64,000 bases of DNA from Daphnia pulex (Eukaryota; Arthropoda; Branchiopoda; Diplostraca; Daphniidae). The stretch is taken from contig NC_060019.1 of the NCBI RefSeq assembly GCF_021134715.1, positions 13,096,001-13,160,000 of the forward strand, given 5' to 3'. Each line of letters begins with the position of its first letter. The first letter of the stretch is position 1. Position numbers and translations under genes: made by a program. The notes beneath the pieces are model-generated. The model searched no databases. It saw nothing but the letters and a program-made list of their open reading frames with translations, and was not told where the DNA came from. Positions 1-18,793 of this stretch are shown in pieces.

Positions 1-2897
1 GCTACTGCTGAAAGTTGACTGATGATTAATCGAGACTTTCCTGGGCTATTTATTTCATCTAGAAGCGGGTACTTCGTAGACTGTTTCAATAGTATATTGT
101 CCTTTAATCCCAATTATTAGAAAACTTTCGCCCTCATTATGACCACGCCACAGTACCATAAAGTAAACAAAATCGCAAAGTCACTGACAGCTATTGATGA
201 CACGGAATAAAAAAAATTAAATCAGTTCAGATAGAGAGACTAGTACCCTTTACATTGAATCGGACGAACTCACACCTATAAAGGACAAACAATGGCGGCA
301 ACGCCCACGACGGTCGGGTAAAAATCAATCTTCCGCACCGTGAGTCTAACTCTCTCTCTCTCTATCTATCGGTACGTAATTATACAGTAACCAGTCTATA
401 TCTCATTTTATTGTGACTAAAATTCCAAGCCTTAACTTTTTCCTACTTTCACGCATGAGTCCATATTGTCTATGGCTATATATACTGCCACGCATAACGA
501 TATGGTCACTTTATTTGCAGCATTCAATTAGAGATAGCCATTCATGCACGGGGTAGAACTGTTTAAATTGTCTCTTGACATTACTCCACGGGTTGAACGT
601 TTGTTGTGTAAAGAATGCCAATACTGCTAATTTCTCTTCTCTCCATTGTGACAAATCGTAATCCTTGAAATCGACATGGCCATAACCCTATGATATTTAA
701 AAATTACCAACTCCACTCACTCGGCGGTTTCGCTTTCAAATCGGGTTTTACTTTTATACGCACCAGCAATTCCTTAGCATTTGACATTTTGAGCCGTTTA
801 GATATTTTTGTTGCGACATTATGTTACGCCACAATTTATTTTATTTATTTTTTGTTTTATTTTGTGAAGTTGTTGATGAACGTGACAGATGTCATTTCTG
901 ATTGAAATCTAGCTGGCGCTTATTACCTACAAAATGTCAAATTTATTCAGAAGGAAAATGTTCGCTATCACAACCTTATCAAATGTCGAATAGCTATTTC
1001 CAAAGCCAAGTTGCCTGCTGATAGCACTTTCGATGAGTAATATTACTGAGGCTCACATTTAATAAATCACAATACATTAAAATAACTTAAAATAATCCGA
1101 ATCTCTTTTTCGTAATATTTTTTATTTTTATTTTTTACTTTAGAATTTTTGTTCTGTGCACTGTTTACGCAATATGAACTGAAACCATAGTCTGAAACTT
1201 AAAAAAAAAATAATAATAAAATAAAACAAAAATAGAAACAAAACAAACAAAGTTGGGTTTTCCGTCGGCTATCTAAACAAATATTTTTTAAGACTTTTGT
1301 TCGTGTTGTCTTCTACTCTCTTCTTTTTTCAATCTTCGTACGTGTTGGATATTACGATTTTCATTTGTAAAAATGACGCAACAGTATGCAGTCTTTTCGA
1401 TCGAGTTAGTAATACGTCTACTACTTAGCTATGTTGGTTGAGCTCCCACAGGCTACAGGTGTTGTACTACTGCCATTGTTGATCTGCCTACATCTTATAT
1501 AGGTGTTATGCAATAATCAGTGGCGCAAATGAAACAGCTACAATTAGAACCGAAGAACCTAATCAATGATTCTTCGGTGTCGGAAATGCGGACAAATTAA
1601 GCAAACTTTTCTTGCATTATTTGTCTCCAACTCACTACCTGATTTACTCGAAGCCCCGAAGTTCGATACTCGTAAACTCCAAACCTTTTAGAAATTAAAT
1701 ACTTCATTCTCCAAATTCCACATCCAATATTATGTGAGTAAAATGCAAATTAAACGTGAAAACTTCATTTCTTAATCCTAACGATCCTTACATCTTGTAT
1801 CCAGAAAACCATCTGTTTTCTGAAACTCTCTCTTAGATATTTCAGTTAGCGTTTTCTTTTCTGTAGCTTTCTTTAGAATTCGAATCACATGTGATCCTTT
1901 CGACGTGATGCCTTTCAGTCCCGACAGTGTTATCATTCATTGACGGAAAGCCACCTGTACTAGACTATGAATAATCCACCTAGTAACATGGACACAACCA
2001 GCGCCAACCGCCAACCGGTTTGCACACGTCACGGAGGTAACGATCATTTTTAAATATTTAATTTTTATACAGTTACAAATTTACATGTTATAACTACTTG
2101 ATTGAAAAATGTGTGTGCTCAGTGAACTCTTTAATTTTCCAGAACCAATAAGTGACTGAAGTGAAAAGTTACGTAGTATGAACAAAGGCCCTGGTAATTA
2201 AACCGCCCTATCATTAGTGCACATTAGTGACAGATATATATCCCGATTGATTCTAGTAGGTACGTTATGTGATTCTTTTGCTACTTTTAACACGGGTGTT
2301 CAGGTACATTACGGGGTCTTTCGTAGCTGAATTAGCTGAACCGAACTGAGTCATACTTTCTAATCTATTAACAAGATTCCCCGAATGGTTTTCCTTGCCA
2401 TAGTCTCGCCGTGGCCCATAATTTGACCAAACTTCCTAAAGACTGAAAAACCGGTGTGCAAATAATGGCAAGGAAATGGGCTAGGAATTCAAATGACTAT
2501 TTCATTACCCAAATTCGCAAAGAGGCCCATTTTACCTATTGTAACTTTGCAATGTGATGGCAAGTTTATAATAGATACGCAATTGCGAGGTAAGCCGTAA
2601 GTGCGGTGTGAATCACAATACAAAGTCATTGGTTAATTTACAGATAATATTTAGATTTAATTTTATATTTTACAGACAAATATTTTGAGAGCCAAATATT
2701 TATAAGAATTTGAATTGGCGCAACCAAATGGACGACACGGATCACTTGGCAACCCCTTGCTCCGAACGGCGCAATACAGATTACTTTTTTGGGCTTTCTG
2801 CCAGGTGTGTACAGACGAATCTGTTTACTTTTCCTTGAGAGCAGTTAATTGAGTAATTTTATTCATTTATTTTTTAAAAGACGAATATCATACCAAA
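1..2897. other. Intergenic region without a recognised gene
   Basis: I see no convincing coding exon on either strand. The only open frame of any length (690-905) is a hydrophobic, AT-rich stretch without flanking splice sites or family resemblance. A short CT-rich microsatellite lies near 349-366. The last few hundred bases before 2898 presumably hold the promoter and 5' UTR of the ECI1 gene, but no TATA box or initiator stands out. Confidence 0.5.
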
Positions 2898-4311
2898 ATG
2901 ATGTCGGTTACAAGCATCGCTCGTAATAAAGTATTACCCCTTCTTCGAAAATCAACCAAAATTCAATCAACCGCATCACTTTCATCTTTAGTTAAACTAG
3001 AAGAAAAACAAGGTTCGTCTTTACTGCACTATTTTAAGCACTGTTATAAATATTTAATCTATAAACTCTCATGGAACAGGCTATGCTGTTGTGTCAATGC
3101 AGAAACCCCCAGTTAATTCCTTGAGCCTTGAAATGATTCAAGCATTGTCCCAGTCCTTGATTGAATTGGAGAAAAACAAATGTAAAGGAATCATCCTAAC
3201 TTCGGTATTGCCAGTTGCCAATCATATTAACACTTAACATTGTTGTACTAAATGGTATTTGTAAAAAAAATAGGCTTGCCCTGGTATTTTCAGTGCTGGC
3301 CTGGACATTCGTGAAATGTACCAGCCTACTGATGACAGATTAAATCAATTTTGGTCTTCGCTTCAAACTTTGTGGCTTCAATTGTATGGTTCCAAAATGG
3401 CAACTGTTGCCCTTATTAATGTAAGAAATTCATTAAAAGATCCTCTACTAAATCAAATTAATCATTTTTTAAAATTACTTTTTTGCAGGGTATGAGCTGA
3501 AGAAAATTAGCATGTGCTTCCTTAATTATTGAGAAATTAATTTGCATTTTACACAACGGTATTAGGGCATGCTCCTGCTGGTGGATGTTTACTAGCAATG
3601 TGTTGTGATTCCAGAATTATGTTAAATGGAAAATCCAGAATTGGCCTTAATGAAACAAAACTTGGAATAGTTGCGCCTTCATGGTAATAAAACGACAAAA
3701 TACTCAAAAAATTAGATGAAGCGGGAAATAATAACGTTATGTTGATTTAGGTTCAAGGATACATTTGTAAATACCATTGGTAAACAGTTATTACTTTAAT
3801 ACTTATTATTTTACTTTTTTATTTTCACAATTAAATTAATTTTCTCCCCTTGGCAGGTGTGCGACAATCCGGTAAGAATTTATAAATATTTACTTTTTGA
3901 ATTATAAAAACCGTGTTTAAACATTTTTGTTTAATTTACTAGAACGTGCGCTTCAATTGGGAAGTCTATTTAGTCCCGAGGAAGCGCTTAAAATAGGTTT
4001 GGTTGACAAATTAGTTCCCGATATGGAAACTGCCACTGCTGTTGCCGAAGCAGAATTGAAAGAATTCCTCCAGATTCCAGGTACATTAAATGAAATTTAT
4101 AACAGTCTATTCAGATGTTTTCTACAGTTGAAGATTTTGGAAAATAGGTATGGCTCGCTATTTGTCCAAGATGAAGATCAGAGAAGCAGCAATTAAAGAT
4201 CTTTCAGAGACCCGTGAAGCAGACTTGAACCAATTTGTAAATTTTGCTAAAACTGATGCAGTTCAAAAGGGTTTAGGATTGTATTTGCAGAGTCTGGCAA
4301 AGAAGAATTAG
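2898..4311 (+). CDS. ECI1: Mitochondrial enoyl-CoA delta-isomerase 1 (crotonase family), 9 exons
   Basis: Shifts cis-3 or trans-3 double bonds to trans-2 during beta-oxidation of unsaturated fatty acids in the mitochondrial matrix. Exons: 2898-3012, 3080-3204, 3274-3420, a single base at 3489, 3566-3683, 3751-3779, 3857-3871, 3943-4080, 4148-4311; about 283 residues (human about 302). The N-terminus is basic and Ser/Thr-rich without acidic residues until about residue 34, as expected for a mitochondrial presequence. Family landmarks read through the splices: QKPPVNSL, FSAGLDIREMY, then the oxyanion-hole segment GHAPAGGC, GLNETKLGI and SPEEALKIGLVD; the C-terminus QKGLGLYLQSL matches the family. 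Joining exon 3 directly to the APAGGC exon breaks the frame; one extra G restores it. Exon 7 is only 15 nt. An AATAAA at 4365-4370 probably ends the transcript, immediately beside the convergent KGD4 gene. Confidence 0.93.
3489..3489 (+). other. ECI1: Predicted one-nucleotide exon of ECI1
   Basis: Exon 3 ends in phase 0 at 3420 (donor gtaaga). The next clear acceptor (attag, ending 3565) begins GGCATGCT, which is out of frame for the conserved NGHAPAGGC by one base. At 3481-3495 a strong acceptor (ttttgcag) is followed by one G and a good donor (gtatga). Inserting that G gives AAT-GGG-CAT-GCT and restores the frame to the stop codon. Non-canonical splicing, a base error or an allele difference would be alternatives. 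Confidence 0.55.
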
Positions 4312-4370
4312 CACAAAGTTTATTCAATACTCTAAAATACAACAATAGAAACTAATGCCTTGTAAATAAA

Positions 4371-4833
4371 TCACTGGGGACCTCCTCTCTGTTAAAACAT
4401 AAAGATTTTGTTACAGAAATAGTAGTACTATACATATAATGAAAGAAGTTTACATTGATGAAGTCTATTTCCTCCTGAGAAATTGCCCTTCTCTTGTACT
4501 TTCCAGATAGCTGCCAATCTTCAATAATGATTGAAGCAGCAGGTTTGTTACTGGCAGTCTTGGACAATGTCACAGGTTGGACATTGTCAACAGCTTGCAC
4601 AGTTGATCCTGTAATGAAGGAAATGGACAATTGAATAGTTTTATGAAATTTAGGAGGCGAATCCTTAAAGAAAACTAACCGTGCATACCTCCAGCAGATG
4701 TTTTCCGAAATTTAATCATAGGGATATGTTTATTAACCATCTAAAATATTGAAGATACATCTTGATCCCTATTGAAATTAAATATTTTCTTATTATCAGT
4801 ACTTACTGCCCAAGTTCTGGTGGCGCTGGCCAT
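4371..4833 (-). CDS. MRPS36: 2-oxoglutarate dehydrogenase complex subunit 4 (KGD4/MRPS36)
   Basis: Small adaptor that recruits the E3 dihydrolipoamide dehydrogenase to the E1-E2 core of the mitochondrial 2-oxoglutarate dehydrogenase complex; formerly listed as ribosomal protein S36. Exons on the minus strand: 4833-4807 (MASATRTWA), 4740-4689, 4608-4454 and 4388-4371; total 83 residues. The conserved N-terminal block HIPMIKFRK and the C-terminal block YKRRAISQEEIDFIN followed by RGGPQ and stop match the family, which ends in an RGGPE-type tail. That tail comes from a separate 18-nt last exon; reading through the preceding donor instead would replace it with an unrelated extension. The gene converges on ECI1 (60 bp between stop codons) and is divergent from the GCP gene. 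Confidence 0.9.
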
Positions 4834-5099
4834 TTTCGTTGTTGCTATTGACATAAATAAAAAGTGAAATCTAATCTGATTTCTTTTTTCTTGTAGACAA
4901 GAAAACTTGTAGCCGTCTGCTAACTCGCTGTCTGCTGCTCTGCTTGTTGCCAGTTTTTTGTATATTTGTTTAACGAATTACGAGTTGAAATTTCGAAACT
5001 TGGCAGCGTAGACCCTTCTTAAACTAGCAGACAAAAAAAAACAATCACCCCAAAATGGCGGTAAATGTCAGTTAAAAAATGGTGTAAAATATTTTGAAA
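4834..5099. promoter_or_regulatory. Shared divergent promoter region, KGD4 / GCP6-like
   Basis: Start codons of the two divergent genes lie 266 bp apart, so both promoters and 5' UTRs must fit here unless upstream non-coding exons exist. No TATA box is obvious, in keeping with housekeeping promoters. Placement is by gene geometry only. Confidence 0.5.
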
Positions 5100-8000
5100 A
5101 TGGATATAGAAAATAGTTTGTAAGTATTGTGTGAATCAATGTAGGTGTTATTTGTTGTTAAATTTTGTATTTTCATTAATAGGTATGGTAGTTTGTGTAA
5201 GTTTTTCACTTTGGTGTCAAAACCAAAGACCAGTGGGCAAACACAAACCTATTCCCGCTGCATCGTCCCTGAAATTGAGCATGAAGCGAAAGAAAAAAAA
5301 CGTGTGAAGCGTGATGGATTCAGTACGTTGTTCACAGCTCACGCCAGTGAAGAAGAAACACTACCAGATGAATTTCAATTGTCAGCATGGATTTTTAAAT
5401 TGAGAACATTAATTCCTTGTTCAGAAGGAAACGCTGTTGAAAATACCATATCTGATCTCGAGAAAGTTGCAGCTGGAAAATTGCACAGTATTTTACCAGT
5501 GCTGAAATTCCTGTCGTACATCAAGCCTGTCAATAATGAAGACGTACCTACCTTGAGAAGCATTGAAAGTTTCCAGAGGCAAAATGCCGAAATCCAACCT
5601 GATGATATGAAGAAGCAGTGTGTACCCTATCCAGTAATTCAACAAAATTTGTTTGATGTTCCACCCTTAAATTTTCACATTGGAGAGCTTTATACCACAA
5701 CTGTCATAGAGAAACTTGAATCCACTCGTCAGTTGGATGAGCTTGATGTTGTTCACAGGAACCTGTTTGGTGCCTTGGAAAATCCGCCAAAAAATCTGAA
5801 TTACCTTGGAATTTCCAAATGCAGCAAACTGACTCTCTGGATGAATACCAACAAATCTGATTATAAACCAGTCGTCCCTGATGAAGGATATGAATCACCA
5901 ACTTCTAATGCCATACCGTTTCCGCCCAATGGAGTTTCCAATTATTGGGAAAATTTAGAAGATCTTTGTGACTCGTCTAGCATTCCTCGAACCTGGGAAG
6001 CAAAATTATCCAATCAAGCATACCCAGTCAAAGAATTACCTTACTTAACTCACGCTCCATTGCAAGTCATGCAAGTACTCTGCCATCACTTTGACAAAAA
6101 TTTGAGTTTGGTCGACGAAACGTTACCAGCACGAGACTCTTTCCTGATGGATGAATCAGAATTCCGAAAAAACTTACTTTACTTGATGTTGGGAATCGAG
6201 TCGAGAGTATTTTCCTGCGTTGACGACGAATTTCAATTCAACGGCTATCCTTTTATCGACGGCATTAGCTCCGATTGTTTATTTGATCTCGCACGACCTC
6301 TGCTACAATGCGGCCGACTGGTTCGACGTCTGAAAAGTGTAGTTTGGAACCCCGAATTCGGCCCTGTACGCAATACACTCGGCGACCAACTGCTCACCAG
6401 CTTACAATACTACCAGGAAATGGTGGAGGAGGTGATCAAGTCCCCGTCGCTAATAGCTGTCGTTCAACAGCTGAAAACACTTTCGTCTTCCCTTCAATTA
6501 ATGGATCGACTTTGGCATTGGCCTGGCTGGGAAGATGGCAACGGACGTGGAGTCGCCTTCCTACAACACCTGGTTGATCTCTCTACCGTGACAGTTAATG
6601 AACAAGAACGAAACCTCTTGACGGCCTATTTTGCTGCTTGTGTTGGACCACTGCTTTCGTAATTACCAACACTTTGATTCAATAGGAGGTTTATTATTAA
6701 ATGTTGTTGTTTTTCTTTCAATTCGTCTAGGTACGTGGAGCATTGGATATACCGCGGGCGCTGCAGCGATCCGCATAATGAATTTTTCATCCGTCCTGAC
6801 AACGTTCAACTGGAAAAACGCGATAGAAACTATTGGATCAATGGCTTTGCTTTTCAGCCCATTAATCGTCCCGTGGGGGCGGGACCCTTCATCAATTCGA
6901 CTGCAGAGGATGACGCAATCACTGGTCTCCTGAACGACGTTTATCTTTGTGGCAAAACGGTCCATCTTTTACAGCTGTGCCAAGCAAAAGTAAGCATTCG
7001 TTTCTAATCAAAAAATGACTGCTGTTTTAAAAAAAGTCAATTGTGTGCTGAGCAGGAACTCGAACACAGGGAGCCGTCGTTGCGAATCGGGCTCAGCCTA
7101 TCCGAATTGAACGATATTCGAGTCGAATGTGCAGCGTACGCACTAAAATTTCCGGCTGTCGTTGACTTCGTACGTCCCATAAAAGATTTGGGCCAACAGG
7201 CTCGCAAGATTCGCGATGCCAAATTGGCTGAACTTGTAGCCGAAAAGGCAGCCAAACAGTTGGACCGTGCCGTGAAGCGCAATGCCCGTCTTGCCTTAGC
7301 CAAGGCCGAGTTGGACGAGCAGCTGGATCTCAAACGGGCAGAGGAAACCAAAAAAGCGAATCAAGAAAGGCTCCTCGATGAAGATATTCAACGATACCAA
7401 GATTCCATCGACCAACGCGAAGCTGATGAAAAACGAAGATTACTCATCAAATACGCCAACTTGCTCGATGACAAGGATTCAACCGATGGACCTTTTGAAG
7501 ATGAGTTGAATGCCAATGATCCAATAAGAGGAATGGATGAAGAAAACAATATCGTTTCTCAAATTCAACCTGACATTGTGACTGTTGAAAAATCGGCCAT
7601 CACTTCAGCTCCAATCCCTGCAACATCTTCAACTACGGTTGCATCATCGAAAAAGTTAAAGCCGACTCAGTCGAAAAAGAAAATTCTAACACGAGAAGAG
7701 ATCAAAACCAAAGTCTTGTGGGAAGAATTTGGAGTGGATCCACGTTACACTAAAGAGAACAATGGAGAATCCACTCCCGAAGAGTCGTGTCGTGTCGTCA
7801 TCAGCCCGTATGTCCCGAAAGACTGGAGTAATCCTGCTTCAGTTTCTTACCCTTTCCAATTTAATTTCGATGCCGAACCCGAGCCAACCATGTTGATCGG
7901 TCAGGAGAAGCGTGACTGGCTACAAGATGCCGAACCTTGTGAGGAGGAAATCCGTGACTTGTCACTTTCTTTCTTTGTCCAGCGGAGTTTACTCTTGCCC

Positions 8001-9039
8001 ATCAGAACCCAGTGTCAAATGGTCAACCGCTCTCTCATGACTCTGCTGACAGGTCCCGACCATCGCTTTATGCAACATCTTGAAGCATTGCGCCAATATT
8101 TGTTCCTGGACAACGGCGCCTTTAGCCACAGTCTCGTGAGCAACATTGGACGCAGATTGGGGCAAATTACTCGAATCCAACAGTTGATTAACGTTCCGTC
8201 AATGAACTTTATCCTGCAAAGTGCACTCAATTCCGTCCAAGCCAACGAGTACTACGCGTCCCGCTTGAGCTTCTACACCAAGGAAGCAACGGGGTCCGTT
8301 TCCAATTCGCAACTGGAGGCTTTGGAATGTTTTACTCTGCGATATAGAGTCCGCTGGCCGCTCAATCTCATTCTGACCGAAGAAGTTATGGACGATTACA
8401 GTCAAATATTCTCTTTCGTCCTGCAATTGCGATTGGCCGCTTGGGCGCTTGAAGACGTCCATGTCAATTTAATGAGAGACCTCCCGAGTCGTTGGCACGC
8501 CGTTCACATCGCGCGTCATTCGATTTATCATTTCGTGCAGACGTTACAAAACTACGTCATGAGCCAGCTGTTGACTCTGGCCTGGAGCGAATTTCTGGCC
8601 GAATTGAAGAAATACGGTGCTCGTTCACTCGATGATTTATACGAATTACATTCCAATTACATCCATCGAGCCAAATCCCGTTTACTACTCACGCCGAAAA
8701 GCGCTTCCCTTTTGAAAATCATTCGTGATGCGCTCAACTTGGCACTCAAATTCCGCGGTCTACTCCTGGCCGCCAATTATACCTATTCGGATGCCCTTCA
8801 ATCGCAAATCAACTCGGTCAGCGCCAAAGCCAAAGAATACGCCAAATTTATCAGGCTAAGTATGTATTTTCAAGATTTAAAAAAGTCTAAAAATTAAATA
8901 GCTCGAAATTGTTATTCATTTTTCTCTTTTCCAATCATTTTCTTTTTTAGTTCTCGAAAAGGTGAATGATCGAAGCCATCAGTCTCATTTCAACGAACTT
9001 TTGGTGAAACTCAACTTCAATGAATATTACAGTAACTAG
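5100..9039 (+). CDS. TUBGCP6: Gamma-tubulin complex component, GCP6-like (Grip1/Grip2 protein)
   Basis: Subunit of the gamma-tubulin ring complex that nucleates microtubules at centrosomes and spindles. Five exons: 5100-5119, 5183-6658, 6731-6989, 7056-8859, 8951-9039; about 1215 residues. The ATG at 5100 fits because its seven-codon exon splices in phase to the main exon. The N-terminal Grip1 half includes HFDKNLSL, LLYLMLGIESRVF and FAACVGPLLSYVEHWIYRG, the last typical of GCPs just before the NEFFIRPD motif. An acidic/basic coiled-coil insert (about residues 610-740) separates it from the Grip2 half (FFVQRSLLLPIRTQ to the end), which in the family binds gamma-tubulin. The long insert favours GCP6 over GCP5; length is between the usual sizes of the two, so the subtype is not certain. 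A poly(A) signal AATAAA lies at 9104-9109. Confidence 0.85.
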
Positions 9040-9103
9040 ATGGCCGCCCCAATGGCTTTCCCCCATTGATTGTTCAGATTGTACATGCCGGATGATGAAG
9101 GTA

Positions 9104-9109
9104 AATAAA
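9104..9109 (+). terminator. Polyadenylation signal AATAAA after the GCP6-like gene
   Basis: A canonical AATAAA lies 65 bp beyond the stop codon of the GCP6-like gene and is the first such hexamer downstream. It is followed within about 70 bp by T-rich sequence. Confidence 0.55.
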
Positions 9110-11062
9110 AGTTTCACGTTGATATTCCACATTTTTCCTCTACCGAAAGGGACTTTCCCTAATTCATTTTATTACGTTTTTTTTTTCTTTGTCATGCTCA
9201 GGATGTTATTTTAGCTATTTTAACAAAAGATTGTAACTATTGAAAGAACGGAGAATTTGTGGAATTTAGTTTCCGGGCCGGTTAGCCGAATGGGGGGGGG
9301 GGCGGCAGATATTTAGACAAATGTTGACAACCATTTTGTGAAACCATATGTCTATTTGGTACTATCCTTAGCACCCAGGACAAGGTGACATTTTCAGGGG
9401 AAAAAAAGAAACACTAGAAAAAGTAAATATTTGTCCAAAACCCCCCAAGTTCCGATTTTATAAAAAAATTCCCGTTTCCATTTTTTAGAGCCGGAATTCC
9501 CCGTTTTTACAGTGAGAAAAAAAAGGAACTTTTAATATTAAATTTAATAAATTTAGCAGGGAGCTTTTCTTTATTGGTAGTGTAAATAGCACGTGTACAC
9601 ACCATGGTGATGGCCCTGCAGCCAATCAGCGGTACTCTACGTTCAGTCTTTGGAACACTACGGTCAATAGGGATTGGTGCCTTGTTGAATTATGATACCC
9701 TTTGGCGAGAAGAAAAAAACTAAGGTCTATTGGATGTGTTTCCTCTTGCTAAAAATACCTCGTTTAAGAGAAGGAAAGTTTTTTCACGTAGCGGACAAAA
9801 GGTTTTACACGTGGCGACAAAGGGTTTTTCCCCCCCGTATGCCGTGAAACTAGACCGAATCTATATTTACCATTGAAGAATCTCTCTCTCAAAAGGTCTA
9901 GCTTAGAAAAGTAGCGCAGTTATTAAAAAAAAAATCATTTTAGACGAGGTTAAAGACGAAATTTGTCATTGTTTAAATTCCAATTTAACTTTAGTAAAAT
10001 TAGCAATTTTAATTGAAAAATAACTGTACTAAAAAAAAGTAAGAAATGTCAAAGAAAATTATTGCGTACGGTACGTCCGTGAGTCTGTCGTGGCGCTGTC
10101 ATACAAGGATCGCTATGTCGTAAATGTTTTTACCCCTGGGCGATAAACATGCAAACAACAGCCAGGTTTTTTTTTTCATTCCCTGCTGATAGGCAACAAA
10201 AACCAACAAAGAAAGTTTTTTCCATAAAAGATATTCCCCTTGAATCTCGCCAAATTGTTGACACTGAAAGTTTTTGATTACAACTGATGTCATCGACCGG
10301 TTTATCTTGAATTCAAAACATCATAACTTGTTTCAAATCATTTGATCCACCTTCTCCTTCCAGCATTCAAATTGTTTTCACTTTCGAACCTCATTTCTTT
10401 CGACTTATCCGGTTATTTTAACCAGCGAACGTTTGATAGTTACGCGACCATTTAGCCATATAGAGCGGGATCGTTTGTAATTGAGTTGCTTTTATCCCGA
10501 TGTACGCATCGAACCCACACCCACTTGCAAACTCCAGTTAGGAGAAAGGAACACTCGGCTATTTTGGTGCGATGAGCAAATATGTAGTTGTATTATATCA
10601 ACAGTCCACACGGGGTGTTGATCGTATACCAACTATGGCACAGCTGGTTTTTCCTCGCCGCGATAGTAACAACCTTGGATAAGCGGATTCCACCTCTCAC
10701 AAGACGGATGTCTCCTTTTTTCTTTCACTCTTTTTTAATGCCTTCCTCATCATGTTCGTCTTTAATAGCACTTGCCTGAAGCACAGCCGGCCGGCCAACT
10801 ACTTAACGGCCAATGCATTCTACAGATTGAAATCATCCTTCCCCCTTGGCTTAGCTTAGTATATTGAAATTAGCATTGGGTGACGTCTTCCGCGCGGATT
10901 TAATGCATTTAAATCGAATCAACCTTGGCGTGTCTTTTCCTGGCATCGATTGTGGTCAAAAGGAGGCGGATAGTCGACGAATTCGGGTAATGGCTTGATA
11001 GAGTCGCATCGAGTTCCTACTTGTTCACGCTTCATAGCCTTGGTTGAAAACCGAGGGGAACT

Positions 11063-11318
11063 GGAAATTCCCGGAGTAAAAAAACAAAACAAAGAAAACT
11101 TTATTTTACCGAGGTGCAAAATAGAGTTATTTTCCTTTTTCCCCCCTCCACTCATTTGTATTATTTGTGCCGTTCTCTTCTGGCATTCTTGTTTTGTTCG
11201 GTTTTCATTAACTTGTATAGCGCCGGAGGAATGTCTTGGAAGACCGACGTAAACTGGTAGCGATAGTAGCGGTAGTTGCTTCTTTTCTTCTTTTAATATT
11301 TCGTGATAGGGAATCCCC
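11063..11318. promoter_or_regulatory. Two perfect NF-kB consensus sites upstream of the IkB gene
   Basis: GGAAATTCCC at 11063-11072 (reverse complement GGGAATTTCC) and GGGAATCCCC at 11309-11318 both fit GGGRNWYYCC exactly. They lie about 2.5 kb upstream of the inferred first exon of the Cactus/IkB gene. Function is inferred from the consensus only. Confidence 0.35.
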
Positions 11319-13420
11319 AACTTTTCAATTAAAGCCGGCTGTCTTCTCCTTCAGAAATGATTCATTAGCGACCGAAAAAAAAAATTCACTGCACGATTTT
11401 TCAAAGCCAATTAGTATCTAGCAAGCATTTTTTCCTTGGCTATCATATAATCCGTGACCAAATTTTTTTTGGGGGGGCTTTTTACACGTGACCACGGAAA
11501 AATAAGGACAGTATCAAATGCTTTAATTTTTCGTTGCGATTCCAAATTGCGTTTTCAAATGTTATGTTCGCCAAAATTAATAAGAGTGAGCTATTTTTTA
11601 AAATAAATGTCTGAAGAGAATCGTGAAATGATTTTGCCCTGGAGAATAGCCGGACTTTTGAATTGCTAAAAGCAGCAGAAGGGGCAGTTGGTTGATACTT
11701 GATTGTGAAAATAACGTATTCGTAATAGAGGTCGATGGCACAATAGTTGGGGATTTTTTGTTTCATCAGTGCAACCAAAGAGTGACTCGAAAACAGTCGC
11801 CGTCATTACGGTTGAGCTTCCAACATTTTTCTGAGAGAGCTCGCTCGCCTGTGGCTAAAGAGCAAAGTACTGTATAGCGCATCAGCGACCACACATCAGC
11901 TATAATTAACATAAGAACAAAAAGCAGCTTTCACTCGACTGTCAGCAATAAATAAAATAGGAATTTTTTCGAAAATCGGTGGGTTTATTTTAATGTGATC
12001 GTTGGACTGTGAAACCAACTAGCACAACTCAGATAGAAACCAATGATAACGTTCAATCCATCTAGACGAATGTCAATTGCACAGTCCCGGACACAAAAAA
12101 AACTTGATTGTTTGTTATTTCTCATGTTTGATCGGCGATAATAAACTGGATATGTCTAGAAATGTCTGGAAAATGAACAGGTTTCAACCGATTCATCTAT
12201 TTAACCTAGATAATACTTTTGAAAAATTATCTTTGGCAAACAAGACCAGATATAAGAACAAGAGACCAGACCAATTTCGCTAGGAAAAACCCAACACTGC
12301 CATCCTGTCAGAGTGTATTGAACTCACGAAACCTTCACCTTTTGAAGGAGAACATATTTTCCCAAACCGAAAAACATTTTTTTCCCCTAAAAAAAAGTTT
12401 GTTTTGCTCCGGAAATCGCCTCATCATATGGAATTCACGCATACGTGTGACACCAACGTGAATCCCCATGAAGTATATATCTAATACTTGACGCAACAGC
12501 TCGAGCAATATAGTATATTAAGGTTAGTATAGATAAAGCAACTTCCGTTTTGTCTCTATCATCGGGCGACGGAAAAACCATTAGTCAGGGGGAAACATGT
12601 AACCCTCGAGTTCAATGCACAGTCCAACTACATTTCATATTTTCCCAACAGATAACAAAGTAGTAATCGAAACATATTGGTCCCTTTCTAATTGTCCCCA
12701 ATTTTTCAGAAGGTCAAAAGTCCGTCAGATATTGCCGCGATCAGCCTCATTACACCGACTGCCGATTGATTACGAGTGAACTCAACACAGGAAAAACCAC
12801 GTTGACTCGTCTGTCAAGGTCTGTTGTTACAAGAGAAAGAAAGAGAAAGAAAAAGAGGAAAGACCCAACGGAAATAACGTGGACCTTCGGGTGGGTTATT
12901 ATGAAATGTGCCAGAATTCCTTGGTGAGTAGCACGCAGGCCATATATGGTGTCGCCTATATGCGATGCGGGATATTTCTTCAGCCTCTACCGAGAAAAAA
13001 GGGATCCTGAACGACCTACTATTTCAGTACTTCCTCCGTAGACAAACAACAGAGTATTACGTGTGATGCGGGCAGCTAGCGCAATCGAAACCTGTGAAGA
13101 AGAAAGACGATTATTGGAGCCCCCATTGAAATTGGAAACAATTGATGACGAGCACTTTGCTGCTCATAACAACAACAATCTGTTTTCTTTTGCTTTTTAG
13201 CAATTGATGTAATTTCCACCTTTGCTCGGTGTGTGTGAAAGGTATGTGACTGAATACGTGATGATCCTTGAACTGTCGGAATAAAACGACGATCGATTTT
13301 AAATCGAACAAAAAAGGTGTCCAAGTACTACTAGATTCTGCTGTGTAATCAACAGCACACAGCACCGGGGAAACAAAACGTCCAGAAGATAACCGTAATG
13401 CAGAAAGAAACAAAAAGGTG

Positions 13421-13427
13421 TATAAAG
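13421..13427 (+). promoter_or_regulatory. Possible TATA box of the IkB gene
   Basis: TATAAAG lies about 340 bp upstream of the first-exon donor at 13766. A near-match kB site (GGGAAATACC, 13447-13456, one mismatch) follows it. No strong initiator is seen at the expected distance, so the call is tentative. Confidence 0.3.
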
Positions 13428-13973
13428 TGGGGGGGCCATTGAATCGGGGAAATACCAAAATCCCAAGTCCTGCCCTTTCGTCGTCGTATCAGCCGGTCCC
13501 AACTCTCCCAAGGCCGGATAGCCAAAATTGCCTCCTGGGCGCAGCGAGAGAGAGAGGGCGCCACCACATAAAGAGCTACAGCAGACGGATGCCAATAGAC
13601 ACAATCAACTTGGCTGTTGTGAGAGAAAGAGTCTGACTAGTGCGTCGTCGTGTTTTTCCAACTCCGTCTCATCCATCTACACAAATCCTAAAAATAGCAT
13701 CGGTCCCCAACAGATCGAAATCAATTCTTTGCTAGGCAAGATCAGAGGATCGTGAGCAATTGAAAGGTAAATTGAGTGTGCTTCAGAGTGAATTTAAAGT
13801 CATGTTTGGGCAACGGTATACATTACGGGACCTACAACGCGAGAAAGTTTTTACTTTGTTACCAACGCGTACTGGCGTTAGTTCACTTAAAATGAAAAAC
13901 CATTTGGTTTAGCATTTTTCAGTAGTTGATCTAATGGTCTTTTTTTTTCTCTGCTCTTTTTTTCGTGTCAGGT

Positions 13974-16900
13974 ATGTGGCATTCAGAAGATTTCATGATA
14001 GCTGATGAAGTGGTTGCTGACGGAGCTCAGTGCCACCGAAGGGTATCATTCCCCCATCAATCAACATTTGAAGAATCCACCAAATTTTGTGAAAATAACT
14101 ACTCTGGAAAGCTAAATTCCGATTCTGGCTTTCTATCTGGAGTCAACATCAATGAGGATTCTGCTGTGATAACCTCCAGCTCCATAAATCTTTCAGACGA
14201 ACAAGACAGCATGAAGCTCAAAAGTGCTGCACAGTTCAGTGTCAACGAGATCAACTTGGATTACAAATCTGGGAAAATAAATAATTTGAGCAGTCCGGTA
14301 AAACCCCAGAAAGAACTTCCAAGAAGGATAACCCTGCGTGACCTACTTAGACAGGATGAGGATGGAGATACGTAAGTCCAAATTGTGCAAGCAATACTGA
14401 CCCACACCAAATAGTAAGATAATAATATTTATTTCTGTAGACCGTTGCATTTGGCCGTGCTCCAGGGGTTTATCGAAGTGGTTTTCAGCCTGGTTAGGAT
14501 TCTACCCGACCCTCGTCTGCTAGAAATCCCCAACAAATATTTGCAGGTGTGTAGTAAAAAAAAAAAAAAAACCCTGCAAAATGACGTGACGTTTATACAT
14601 CTTGTAACTTTTATCATCACAGACGCCACTTCATTTGGCAGTTTTAACGAATCAGGCGCCTTTGGTTCGCCGGCTAGTGGTCGGGGGCGCATCGGTCCTG
14701 CTGCGAGATCGTTTAGGCAATACACCACTACATTTGGCCTGTCGTGATGGGCATGTTGATTGTGCCCACGCCTTGCTCCTACCCGTCAGTCACGAAGAAC
14801 GCCAATCCGCTTTGTTACCGTTGCACATTGTCCCACAACCTCTGCCACAGGACTTGGAACAGAAAAATTACGATGGTAAGTCGCATACGTAATTTTTGTT
14901 TGCAGAAAAGAACAAGGATTTCTAAGGAATTTTGGGGGAGAAGGCAGTAGCTTCGGGGGGTTGGTTCTTGTATGGTAGTGACAACTTCCTCCTTTGGCGC
15001 CATCAGATTGTCCTTGAGAAATTTGATTCGACCTCCTCTGTTCACTTTGGTACCACTTGAATTTTGGCAGGCTCAGACCCCCTTGATGAGTGGGATTTTC
15101 CCATATTCCCTTTCCTATGGAGAAGAACGCCGTGAGTCGTGTTTGTTATCTTGCCGTTGCGTGAGTGCACATGTGATGAGAGTATTTTGGAATTTCCCGA
15201 TTTCTACATGGATCAGACTACGCCAAGGAGGGGTAGATGGGTGGGTGATGAGGTGTGAGTCCCTTATTCAACTTCTGTTTTCCTATTGCATTCAGATAAA
15301 GTCTGGAAATACCCAGAGTAATTTTTTTTGTAATGGCCTCGAGCAGATTTTCATCACGCGATAATCACATCTCTCTCTCTATACGCATTGTATCCACTTT
15401 CATTGTAGTGTTACCTTTCAGTCGCTAAAATGACCCCCCGCTGGTTTAAATGCCTCGAATAATAATTTGAATCTTTCAGCATCCACAAACAACGACAGGA
15501 AATAATTTGTCACACAAAAGTGATGAATCTAGTTTTAAGTTGAGGAAAAGGGAAGTTGAAGTATCGAGGTCACGTGACGTGCGCAGAATGACTTGGGGTT
15601 TTCCAACTCTCAGTTGATTACGTGACGGGGTGAGGCCCTTGTGTCGAGCCAAATGCGCAGGGACTCGTCAAGTTCAAAAAAGAAACAAAACAGAACCCCC
15701 TTGCGACCTGGTTTTTTCGTGTTACTGTCGATACGGTCACGTTTAGTGTAAAAACCCACCCGCCTCCTTCTTTCAGCCACCCACCCACCACCTTCCTCGT
15801 TTCCATACTTGGGATTTCCCAAATTTTCTCCTGGAGCGTTGGCTGAACTGGTTGGTACCGATGTACTGGTAAACCTTGGTTGGTTTTTCCCCAGCATGTT
15901 TCGTTTCTCTTTCAAATGGCTGCATTCTTTTTCCAGCTGCCGCAGGGAAGCGTCACGTACGCTTCGAAATTCACAGCTGTCATGTTGGTCGGGTATTTTT
16001 TAATACCTTTACGTTGTTATGAAATTAAAAATCTGGGGAGATTAGAAAGAAAATATGCTGCAAACATCCGTGAGCGCCGTACAGTTAACCGACCGAGCTC
16101 CAAAATGATAATCTCCGATAAGGAAAAACCAATGGCCATTGGTAAACCTACAATCACATGTTTGGGCCGCGCTGGTTTTCTAGTTTGTTATTCAAGTTCG
16201 TTGACTGGCTTTATTTACTCTCAAGTCTCATAAACTGATGTAATTTGAAAGTTCAGTCGTGATAAAACTGACTGATGACGAATTTGAATTTGTTTGCGCT
16301 ACCTACCTACGTGCCCTCACTTTTCATGTCCTTCGGATAGGCCAGAATGCATTCTAGACATGTGATATCACCACCTTTGGCTTATTATATGATCCCCAGA
16401 ATTGCACCAAATTCTGTTTACTCTCCACGAAAGGGAAGTTGGGAATACCCATGACCCACCTGGATTACGAGTCCTTCGTAGCATAACTTAAGAATTGAAA
16501 GGCGGTGCAGACTTTGACGGGCATAGGGGAGAAGGGAATTTCCCCTAGTTCAAGCGTGATCAGCTATTTATATCCTCGTGCATTTCATGCTCCTTTCTCT
16601 CAAGGAAAAATAGGAGGAAAAAAAAACAGCAGCTGAATTTGAAAACGACGCTTCAGTTCGAATTCAATGTTTTATTTCAATATTCTGCTACGTAAATGTC
16701 AATCACGAACTTCATTGTTACACGACGAGTTGATTTAATTTGTGTTTTCTATTTTTTAATCAACAGGTCAGATGCCGCTCCACCTTGCGGCCATGAACGG
16801 ACATGTTTCTATAGCGAAATTACTTTGCTGCTTCGGAGCTAACGTCAACGCCATGGTAAATAATATTTCGCACATTTCAATTTGGAAAAGAGGATATTTC

Positions 16901-17322
16901 ATGATTGTTTTTCAATTTATTATAGGAAGGCAAATATGGACGAACAGCACTGCACTATTCAGTTGAACGCCGGCATCCAGCGATGCTGCACTTCCTAGTG
17001 TCCCAGTGTGGCGCACAAACCGAAGCCGAAACCTACTCTGGTTATACAGCTCATCAAATCGCTTCAGTTTCCGAGCCGGTTTTAGCTGCCTTATTGGCCG
17101 ACTTGGGCGCGCAAATTAGGCCTTGCCCACTTGAGAAATTCTCGAGTGACGAAGAAGATTTCTCTGACAGCAAAATGTCGTTGACCGCATCATGGAGGCC
17201 CCGTTCTGACAAAGTATAATTCAACATTTAATAAGCAACTTGTTTGAACAAAAGGCTAACGGTTTTGTTTTCCATTGCAGAATATGTCCTTGACGAGTGA
17301 AGCCCTTCATTTGGTAGCCTAA
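13974..17322 (+). CDS. cact: NF-kB inhibitor Cactus/IkB with six ankyrin repeats
   Basis: Cytoplasmic inhibitor that holds Dorsal/NF-kB dimers until signal-dependent destruction. Coding exons: 13974-14371, 14441-14546, 14623-14875, 16767-16855, 16926-17213, 17281-17322; 391 residues. The N-terminus carries a textbook phosphodegron, DSGFLS at residues 50-55, the DSGxxS form used by IKK-type kinases and beta-TrCP ligases. Six ankyrin repeats follow (TPLHLAVLQG, TPLHLAVLTN, TPLHLACRDG, MPLHLAAMNG, TALHYSVERR and a degenerate last one, TAHQIAS). The C-terminus has an acidic SSDEEDFSD stretch, like the PEST region of vertebrate IkBs. The third intron is 1.9 kb, much longer than the others, and holds four perfect kB sites, which suggests induction by the factor the protein inhibits. 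Poly(A) signal at 17471-17476. Bcl-3 or a Relish C-terminus is less likely given the degron and the lack of a Rel domain. Confidence 0.92.
15092..16545. promoter_or_regulatory. Intronic cluster of NF-kB/Dorsal binding sites
   Basis: Inside intron 14876-16766 there are four exact matches to GGGRNWYYCC: GGGATTTTCC at 15092-15101, GGAATTTCCC (reverse) at 15189-15198, GGGATTTCCC at 15811-15820 and GGGAATTTCC at 16534-16543. A Dorsal-type GGTTTTTCCC (GGGAAAAACC in reverse) is at 15882-15891. By base composition alone about 0.2 exact matches would be expected in 1.9 kb. Confidence 0.6.
15569..15578. promoter_or_regulatory. GTCACGTGAC E-box (CLEAR-type) in the IkB intron
   Basis: A perfect ten-base palindrome matching the site bound by MiT/TFE bHLH-zip factors, lying among the kB sites. 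Only sequence match supports it. Confidence 0.35.
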
Positions 17323-17470
17323 AATAGCATCTATTATCGTTACACTAATGTATGTGTCACTTTACAACTTGTGTAATTATGAAAATATTTTTTTTTGTTT
17401 GGAAAAAGAAACTATTATGGGTTGTAGTCGTTTCGTGACATCATTACTGTACGGCGTACTGTACAGAATC

Positions 17471-17476
17471 AATAAA
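17471..17476 (+). terminator. Polyadenylation signal of the IkB gene
   Basis: AATAAA lies about 150 bp after the IkB stop codon and about 80 bp before the FCF1 stop codon on the opposite strand, so the two transcripts end tail to tail. Confidence 0.5.
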
Positions 17477-17552
17477 AATTATCACGTTTTTACGGCTTTA
17501 CCAATTCGTGTCACGGTGTATTATTATTCAAATTTCAAAAACAATTCAATTT

Positions 17553-18494
17553 TTACTTTGGAGCCCCGTAAGCGTCGGGCATGCGCTCTACTGTGTACCG
17601 ATGCTGAGAAAGGAACATAAGTGGCACGCCTGGAATTTTTCTAATTCGTCGCTTTAAGTCACGATCGCATGTACCGACGATATAACACTTGTGCTAGTTA
17701 GGACAAACGAAAAAAAAATTACTATTTCATGTAATAAACAAAGATGAATATATGTAAAATAAGTACCTGAGTTACTCTTTGCACAATGCAGTCATCAGCA
17801 TAGGTGCCTTTATGGGTGCAGGTAAGTCTTTCAAATCTTGGATCTTTAATGATCTTGAGAGCAATACGGTATTTGGGTCCAAGCTTCTCAAGCTCAGCCA
17901 TGACACAGTCAGTGATGTAAGGTATACCTGTTACATTGATGAATTTATCATAAAATAGTTCAAATACTTAAAATATTGTTTAGTCACATTAACTCACACT
18001 TTGCGTAAAGACAATCCATTAGAGACTGCACAATGTCCATTTTGTTTTTAACCGAAAAGTTGATGAAATTGGTGTCCATTAAAATGTGGTATGGTGGACC
18101 AAGTTGTGTATTGTATTGAAAAAACAGTGCTGACGAAGCTTGAGTGCTGTAATAAAAACATAATTATGTAAGATTGAGTATTAAGGGTCTTCTTGAAACC
18201 AACTACTTACACTTGATGGACATTCAGTTCATGTGGATCAATTTTCTTCTCTTTTGGTTTTACAATCTTGTTCTTTTCTTTTCTATGATTTTTAAAGCTT
18301 GTTTTAAATCACAATAAAATAAAAGGTAAAATAAACTATGGACTTACATTCTAGGATCGTTAGCAGATATCATTCGCTTCATTGTTGCAAACTTTTTGGT
18401 GCGCTTGTCTTTTGGCTAATACAAAAGAATTGAAGTAAATTTGACGGAAAAATTGGTGAAGTATAATTTTCATAAAGAAAAACAAACTTACCAT
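17553..18494 (-). CDS. FCF1: rRNA-processing protein FCF1/UTP24 (PIN-domain nuclease)
   Basis: Component of the nucleolar small-subunit processome; its PIN domain makes early pre-rRNA cuts around 18S rRNA. Minus-strand exons: 18494-18492 (the ATG alone), 18415-18348, 18282-18211, 18146-17998, 17927-17767, 17693-17553; 197 residues, against 198 in human. Highly conserved runs include [60 protein letters not shown] and [15 protein letters not shown]. The PIN acidic residues are visible in MDTNF (about 70), [14 protein letters not shown] and CDRDL. The first coding exon is just the three-base start codon, with its donor immediately after ATG. It is convergent with the IkB gene and divergent from WARS1. 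Confidence 0.96.
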
Positions 18495-18793
18495 GATGAA
18501 AAATGTGTTATAACTTCTGTTTTTCTGTATTCTTCCGTAATTAAATGATTAATACAAAATTTTCAGACAAGTGACATTTACACGTGCTGTTTAACGTCGA
18601 CTGAATTGAAAATAGTTGCCAGATCTCATTATTATGTTGATTTTTTTCTAGCAGACAAGACATTTTTTCAGACCAGGAAGTCGTGCGAAAAGTTAACCAC
18701 GAAACTGCCGCTAGTTACATCAGCAAAGTAATAGCTTATGAAAACATTTATCAATTTCAAATTATTTCAATTTTGTTGAATTTCATAGTCGTA
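18495..18793. promoter_or_regulatory. Shared divergent promoter region, FCF1 / WARS1
   Basis: 299 bp separate the two divergent start codons. A TTTCATAG acceptor-like sequence just before the WARS1 ATG hints that WARS1 may have a small 5' UTR intron here. No TATA box was found. Confidence 0.45.

Follow-up and report, generated by a model that had tools for sequence, protein, structure and literature searches.

Does the Daphnia pulex gene for the NF-kB inhibitor IkB/Cactus carry the DNA for its own negative feedback, and does this DNA lie in the one long intron of the gene? The original prediction for this locus reported a cluster of exact NF-kB (kB) sites in that intron and read it as a built-in feedback enhancer. 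The window, that is, the whole stretch of DNA that was analysed, is 64 kb in length and corresponds to positions 13096001-13160000 of contig C3, in a genome of 133,188,837 bases on 13 contigs.

The cactus gene and its long intron

The gene and the two non-coding stretches that concern this study are as follows (window positions).

13974..17322, plus strand: cactus/IkB coding region, 391 aa (hand-set splice model and translation)
13974-14371, 14441-14546, 14623-14875, 16767-16855, 16926-17213, 17281-17322, plus strand: cactus exons
14876..16766, plus strand: long intron with the kB-site cluster, 1891 bp, GT-AG
8898..13600, no strand assigned: upstream intergenic DNA, from the end of the gamma-tubulin-complex gene frame to cactus, with four strict and eight loosely defined kB sites

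The identity of the gene was assessed from its protein. Ankyrin repeats were matched in Pfam, and the PDB matches include IkB-alpha (1ikn/1nfi, over residues 128-329), although some generic ankyrin proteins rank above it. The sequence DSGFLS at residue 50 has the form of an N-terminal degron, DSGxxS being the IkB/Cactus degron consensus. On the ankyrin domain and DSGFLS, the 391-aa gene is Cactus/IkB. It looks single copy. With 106 of the 178 genome candidates scored, the only near-identical copy was the present locus; 43 matches to Cactus were found, those outside the locus were of ankyrin type with at most 44% identity, and no paralogue was seen among them. A D. pulex survey counts a single gene each for Cactus, Dorsal, and Relish (PMC2685406).

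The remaining four coding introns of cactus are 69, 76, 70, and 67 bp in length. The original prediction had set the long intron against neighbours of 60-80 bp and taken the contrast to suggest that it is retained for regulation; the contrast holds (1891 versus 67-76 bp), and retention for regulation is a putative explanation of it. What kind of DNA is this intron? Its sequence was matched at one place in the genome only, and a repeat-derived intron was set aside for this reason. Since no Rfam family reached the threshold in 8500-18600, a non-coding RNA in this region was also set aside. The open frames of the intron, up to 137 aa, are of chance length, and hidden coding frames were set aside because the four that were searched gave no Pfam match over the cut-off (one sub-threshold match to TIL_2, E 0.006). 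Judged by its site density, its single genomic place, and the lack of an Rfam match, the intron is dense in kB sites, unique, and apparently non-coding.

Repeats were considered as well. Tandem repeats were rejected as the source of the kB sites, since the sole array in 8500-18600 is small and lies at 9775-9830, outside the intron. As for internal repeats, the intron has a direct pair, which is weak, and two pairs in inverted orientation. One inverted pair (15093-15114 and 16429-16450, 22 nt, 82% complementary) shares bases with two of the intronic kB-like sites, the first and the seventh, and may be no more than two oppositely oriented kB sites.

kB sites in the intron and the upstream DNA

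A scan with the strict motif GGGRNWYYCC and a few looser Rel-type motifs gave the following sites.

9149..9158, plus strand: strict kB site GGGACTTTCC (motif scan; absent from the original prediction)
9493..9502, minus strand: strict kB site GGGGAATTCC (motif scan; likewise absent)
11063..11072, minus strand: strict kB site GGGAATTTCC (motif scan)
11309..11318, both strands: strict kB site GGGAATCCCC (motif scan)
15092..15101, plus strand: strict kB site GGGATTTTCC (motif scan)
15189..15198, minus strand: strict kB site GGGAAATTCC (motif scan)
15304..15314, minus strand: kB-like GGGTATTYCC-type site (looser motif picked after looking)
15595..15604, plus strand: strict kB site GGGGTTTTCC (motif scan; likewise absent)
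15811..15820, both strands: strict kB site GGGATTTCCC (motif scan)
15881..15891, minus strand: Dorsal-type site TGGTTTTTCCC (matches the Dorsal-type consensus GGGWWWWWCCM)
16441..16450, minus strand: kB-like GGGTATTYCC-type site (looser motif picked after looking)
16534..16544, both strands: strict kB site GGGAATTTCCC (motif scan)

Thus, the intron has five distinct strict sites, which make seven strand hits, and eight sites when the looser Rel motifs are included. All four strict intronic sites of the original prediction (15092, 15189, 15811, and 16534) were recovered, as was the Dorsal-type site that it had placed at 15882, and a fifth strict site at 15595 had been overlooked. Its two upstream sites at 11063 and 11309 were also confirmed, with a further two at 9149 and 9493 missed. 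As a whole, the reported cluster was correct and understated.

How far does this exceed chance? The background consisted of 20 stretches of 10 kb taken from 0.2-6.8 Mb of twelve large contigs. These 200 kb of random genome contain 13 distinct strict sites, so that about 0.12 are expected in 1891 bp, where five were observed. Counted over all 133.19 Mb, the genome has 8496 strand hits (4278 plus and 4218 minus), a rate that likewise predicts about 0.12 strand hits for the intron, against the seven found. The original prediction had called for a comparison of the intron with genomic density, and this came out in its favour; the random genome never had more than two strict sites per 1891 bp. The intron was also shuffled 5000 times by dinucleotides; 4043 of these shuffles had no site, 867 had one, 86 had two, four had three, and none had four or more. 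The excess is also specific for the motif. When the same letters were scrambled into 400 other motifs, 365 were absent from the intron, 35 occurred once, and none occurred more than once; the ratio of observed to expected sites is 41 for kB and 0.77 for the scrambles. GGGRNWYYCC is almost twice as common genome-wide as the reversed motif (8496 versus 4504 strand hits).

From the genome-wide rate, a Poisson model puts the probability of four plus-strand hits in the intron at 5e-7. The first 2.80 Mb of contig C1 reach a maximum of three plus-strand hits per 1891 bp, at two places, versus four in the intron. Because the sites are somewhat clumped, it is safer to rely on this empirical result than on the Poisson value; no such place occurs in 2.80 Mb, which bounds their frequency at about one per Mb. 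The genome may therefore contain other clusters of this kind, and the weight of the intron cluster comes from its location in the expected gene. Taken over the whole window, the excess is weaker (14 strand hits, where shuffles averaged 5.13 and one of 100 reached 14), since 12 of the 14 hits lie at cactus, between 9149 and 16544.

The looser set of four Rel-type motifs was fixed after the sequence had been seen, so its P values are optimistic, and it is informative in setting the intron and the upstream DNA apart from the remainder of the window. With expectations based on 27 sites in 200 kb, the intron has eight sites (0.26 expected) and the upstream DNA at 8900-13600 also has eight (0.63 expected), while the 46.6 kb of the window downstream have four (6.3 expected) and positions 1-8899 have none (1.2 expected). 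Thus, kB sites exceed chance in both the intron and the upstream DNA of cactus, which are putative regulatory DNA. Loosely defined sites are equally numerous in the upstream DNA and in the intron, so the sites form a two-part cluster rather than an intron-encoded loop.

A scan of the intron with spaced 3+3 words, made regardless of any known motif, ranked GGGn5CCA, GGAn4CCA, and GGAn4CCC second, fifth, and sixth of 10082 words (best P 4.1e-6), below the low-complexity word ACCnACC. These kB words are not outstanding by P alone, because P < 2e-7 was reached in each of the 12 lowest-scoring windows among 100 from the random background, several of them with simple-repeat-like words.

GATA is the usual partner of kB in insect immune enhancers. 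The intron has six GATA words (3.15 expected). However, HGATAA lies within 50 bp of only two of its eight sites, where 20000 random placements gave a mean of 2.05. A kB-GATA grammar of the intronic enhancer was rejected for want of excess proximity. The intron contains no AP-1 and no STAT word, for which 0.19 and 0.68 were expected. A single GTCACGTGAC word, a perfect palindrome of the bHLH-zip (CLEAR-like) type, lies at 15569-15578; it has no occurrence in the 200 kb random background.

One of the two C1 places deserves a separate description. Three kB palindromes lie within about 70 bp at C1:927617-927684 (4918-4985 of the extracted stretch), shortly before a TATATAAAAA word, and are surrounded by frames that were labelled by eye as gypsy-like pol and env-like. 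The 27-base double kB site of this stretch has three occurrences in the genome, of which one carries a mismatch. It is possibly a retroelement promoter answering to host NF-kB.

Probable negative feedback and its alternatives

The cluster is real, is motif-specific, and lies in a gene expected to carry one, so NF-kB feedback of cactus is the best reading. I consider it likely that the kB sites of cactus are NF-kB-responsive regulatory DNA, upstream and in the intron, which gives negative feedback. That part of the original prediction stands, while the confinement of the loop to the intron does not, given the four strict and eight loosely defined sites upstream. In the proposed mechanism, a homotypic cluster of Rel/NF-kB-type sites would span the upstream DNA and the sole long intron. 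Toll or IMD signalling would free Dorsal or Relish, and the freed Rel dimers would probably bind the upstream and intronic sites. I infer an enhancer activity with a positive effect, by which Rel binding would probably raise cactus transcription from a start presumably located upstream. The new Cactus protein would then re-capture Dorsal and end the response.

Are the proteins for such a loop present? The same genome codes for Dorsal and two Relish-like genes, with DNA binding as a predicted property. The Rel homology domain (RHD) exons of Dorsal, on contig C6, score over the Pfam cut-off and include a RFRYECEGRSAG loop, which presumably contacts the DNA. On C3, one Relish-like RHD exon scores over the cut-off and a second just below it (25.8 versus 27 bits). 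In each case, I infer that the RHD exon and the nearby ankyrin exons form one Relish-like gene.

The two Relish-like genes, at C3:3337307-3342901 (minus strand) and C3:4977415-4990046 (plus strand), compare with the count of one Relish given in the survey (PMC2685406). They align in blocks of 777, 549, and 81 bases with 80%, 87%, and 75% identity, and such alignable blocks make the copies look like duplicates. The 10 kb surrounding Dorsal, like those surrounding the first Relish, contain one strict kB site and no cluster. The second Relish has three strict sites in the surrounding 10 kb; two of these, separated by 74 bp, lie about 0.5 kb ahead of the first RHD frame. In both copies, the alignable block is bordered on its 5′ side by a kB-like site (extracted-stretch positions). 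In the first, the site is at 5025 and the block starts from 5032, and the site was read by eye as the Dorsal-type GGGTTTTCCCC; in the second, the site is at 5368, just before TATAAATT, and the block starts from 5376. With two copies only, these edge sites hint at a possible self-regulation of Relish.

Could the intron and its flank simply happen to hold several GGG...CC words, by chance or composition? The original prediction picked the region and the motif together, and clusters of three plus-strand hits exist at the two C1 places, one amid the retroelement frames. However, neither shuffles nor scrambled motifs nor random genome come near the count of the intron, and a chance origin of its cluster was set aside on these grounds. 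The GC content of the intron (0.427) is close to that of the window (0.422), and the gene is the very one with the strongest prior expectation. I therefore regard coincidence as improbable. A protein other than NF-kB would bind the same words in another reading, since Schnurri/HIVEP-type zinc fingers are kB-site binders and motif matching cannot separate Rel proteins from them; the sites would then serve development or BMP signalling rather than immune feedback. The Dorsal-cactus feedback known in fly and shrimp makes Rel proteins the simpler reading, and I give the zinc-finger alternative little credence.

The intron might also be an enhancer or silencer of another gene, or Rel proteins might repress cactus through it. 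Enhancers can act beyond their host gene, and Dorsal can repress, which counts for a repressing intron. The neighbours, however, look like housekeeping genes, none of them an obvious NF-kB target. Upstream lies the gamma-tubulin-complex gene; downstream lie an Fcf1 gene (Pfam E 1.2e-18), a kinesin gene, and a tRNA-synt_1b match just below the curated cut-off (19 versus 21.1 bits), which I take to be tryptophanyl-tRNA synthetase. Moreover, the upstream sites also flank cactus. A role of this kind therefore seems unlikely. A kB-driven internal promoter, in which the site at 16534 and TATTTATA at 16565 start a short transcript, is highly improbable. The kB site does lie about 30 bp before this TATA-like word, and an in-frame ATG at 16772 would give a product without the degron. 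However, three earlier ATGs (16587, 16667, and 16696), all leading to stops, intervene between the TATA-like word and 16772, and the protein would be without the first ankyrin repeats. If such a promoter did exist, it would make a degron-free Cactus fragment, a signal-resistant inhibitor made only while NF-kB is active.

Comparison with known feedback loops

The feedback circuit itself is already known from flies, shrimp, and mammals, and the intronic placement is a detail. If the feedback reading is true, the NF-kB/IkB loop would extend to the branchiopods, crustaceans that serve as a model for the evolution of hosts and parasites, with exact, testable sites for a candidate Daphnia immune enhancer. 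In the open-access literature searched, no title or abstract dealt with kB sites in a Daphnia cactus intron, and no report of cactus induction in Daphnia was found. In the accessible text of a parasite-exposure study of Daphnia galeata (PMC6295042), cactus is mentioned a single time, in a table of copy numbers; thus, it is not named there among the regulated genes.

The closest parallel is Litopenaeus vannamei. According to the shrimp study (PMC3504109), the cactus promoter has five predicted kB motifs, four of which were Dorsal-bound by ChIP; LvDorsal raises LvCactus transcription, and cactus rises after LPS, poly(I:C), or bacteria but falls in white spot virus infection, against the feedback expectation. 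Daphnia thus resembles the shrimp as a crustacean with several kB motifs at cactus, while the Dorsal binding and the induction are the shrimp's. The placement differs; the bound regions of the shrimp gene span -1036 to +22 of the transcription start, whereas the strict sites of Daphnia, which are candidates for binding, are intronic or precede the coding start by about 2-4.5 kb.

In Drosophila, published work describes Dorsal sites in the promoter/enhancer of cactus (PMC9252280) and transcriptional induction of cactus by wasp infection via Toll, in a loop likened to that of vertebrate IkB-alpha (PMC3009591). The fly gene is like the Daphnia gene as read here, in that NF-kB drives the expression of its own inhibitor. 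Vertebrate IkB-alpha (NFKBIA) has multiple kB sites that serve negative feedback. Multiple sites are common to NFKBIA and Daphnia cactus, although the vertebrate ones lie in the proximal promoter. These comparisons suggest that the position at which the loop is wired (promoter, far upstream, or intron) can shift while its logic is unchanged.

An intronic position also has a counterpart in the IkB family. BCL3 has NF-kB-driven intronic enhancers. A reference title cited in two papers (PMC8959985, PMC12074568) states that BCL3 is induced by IL-6 via Stat3 at the intronic enhancer HS4. BCL3 and Daphnia cactus are thus both IkB-family genes with intronic enhancers, putative in the case of cactus, although BCL3 is an atypical IkB and that title concerns Stat3.
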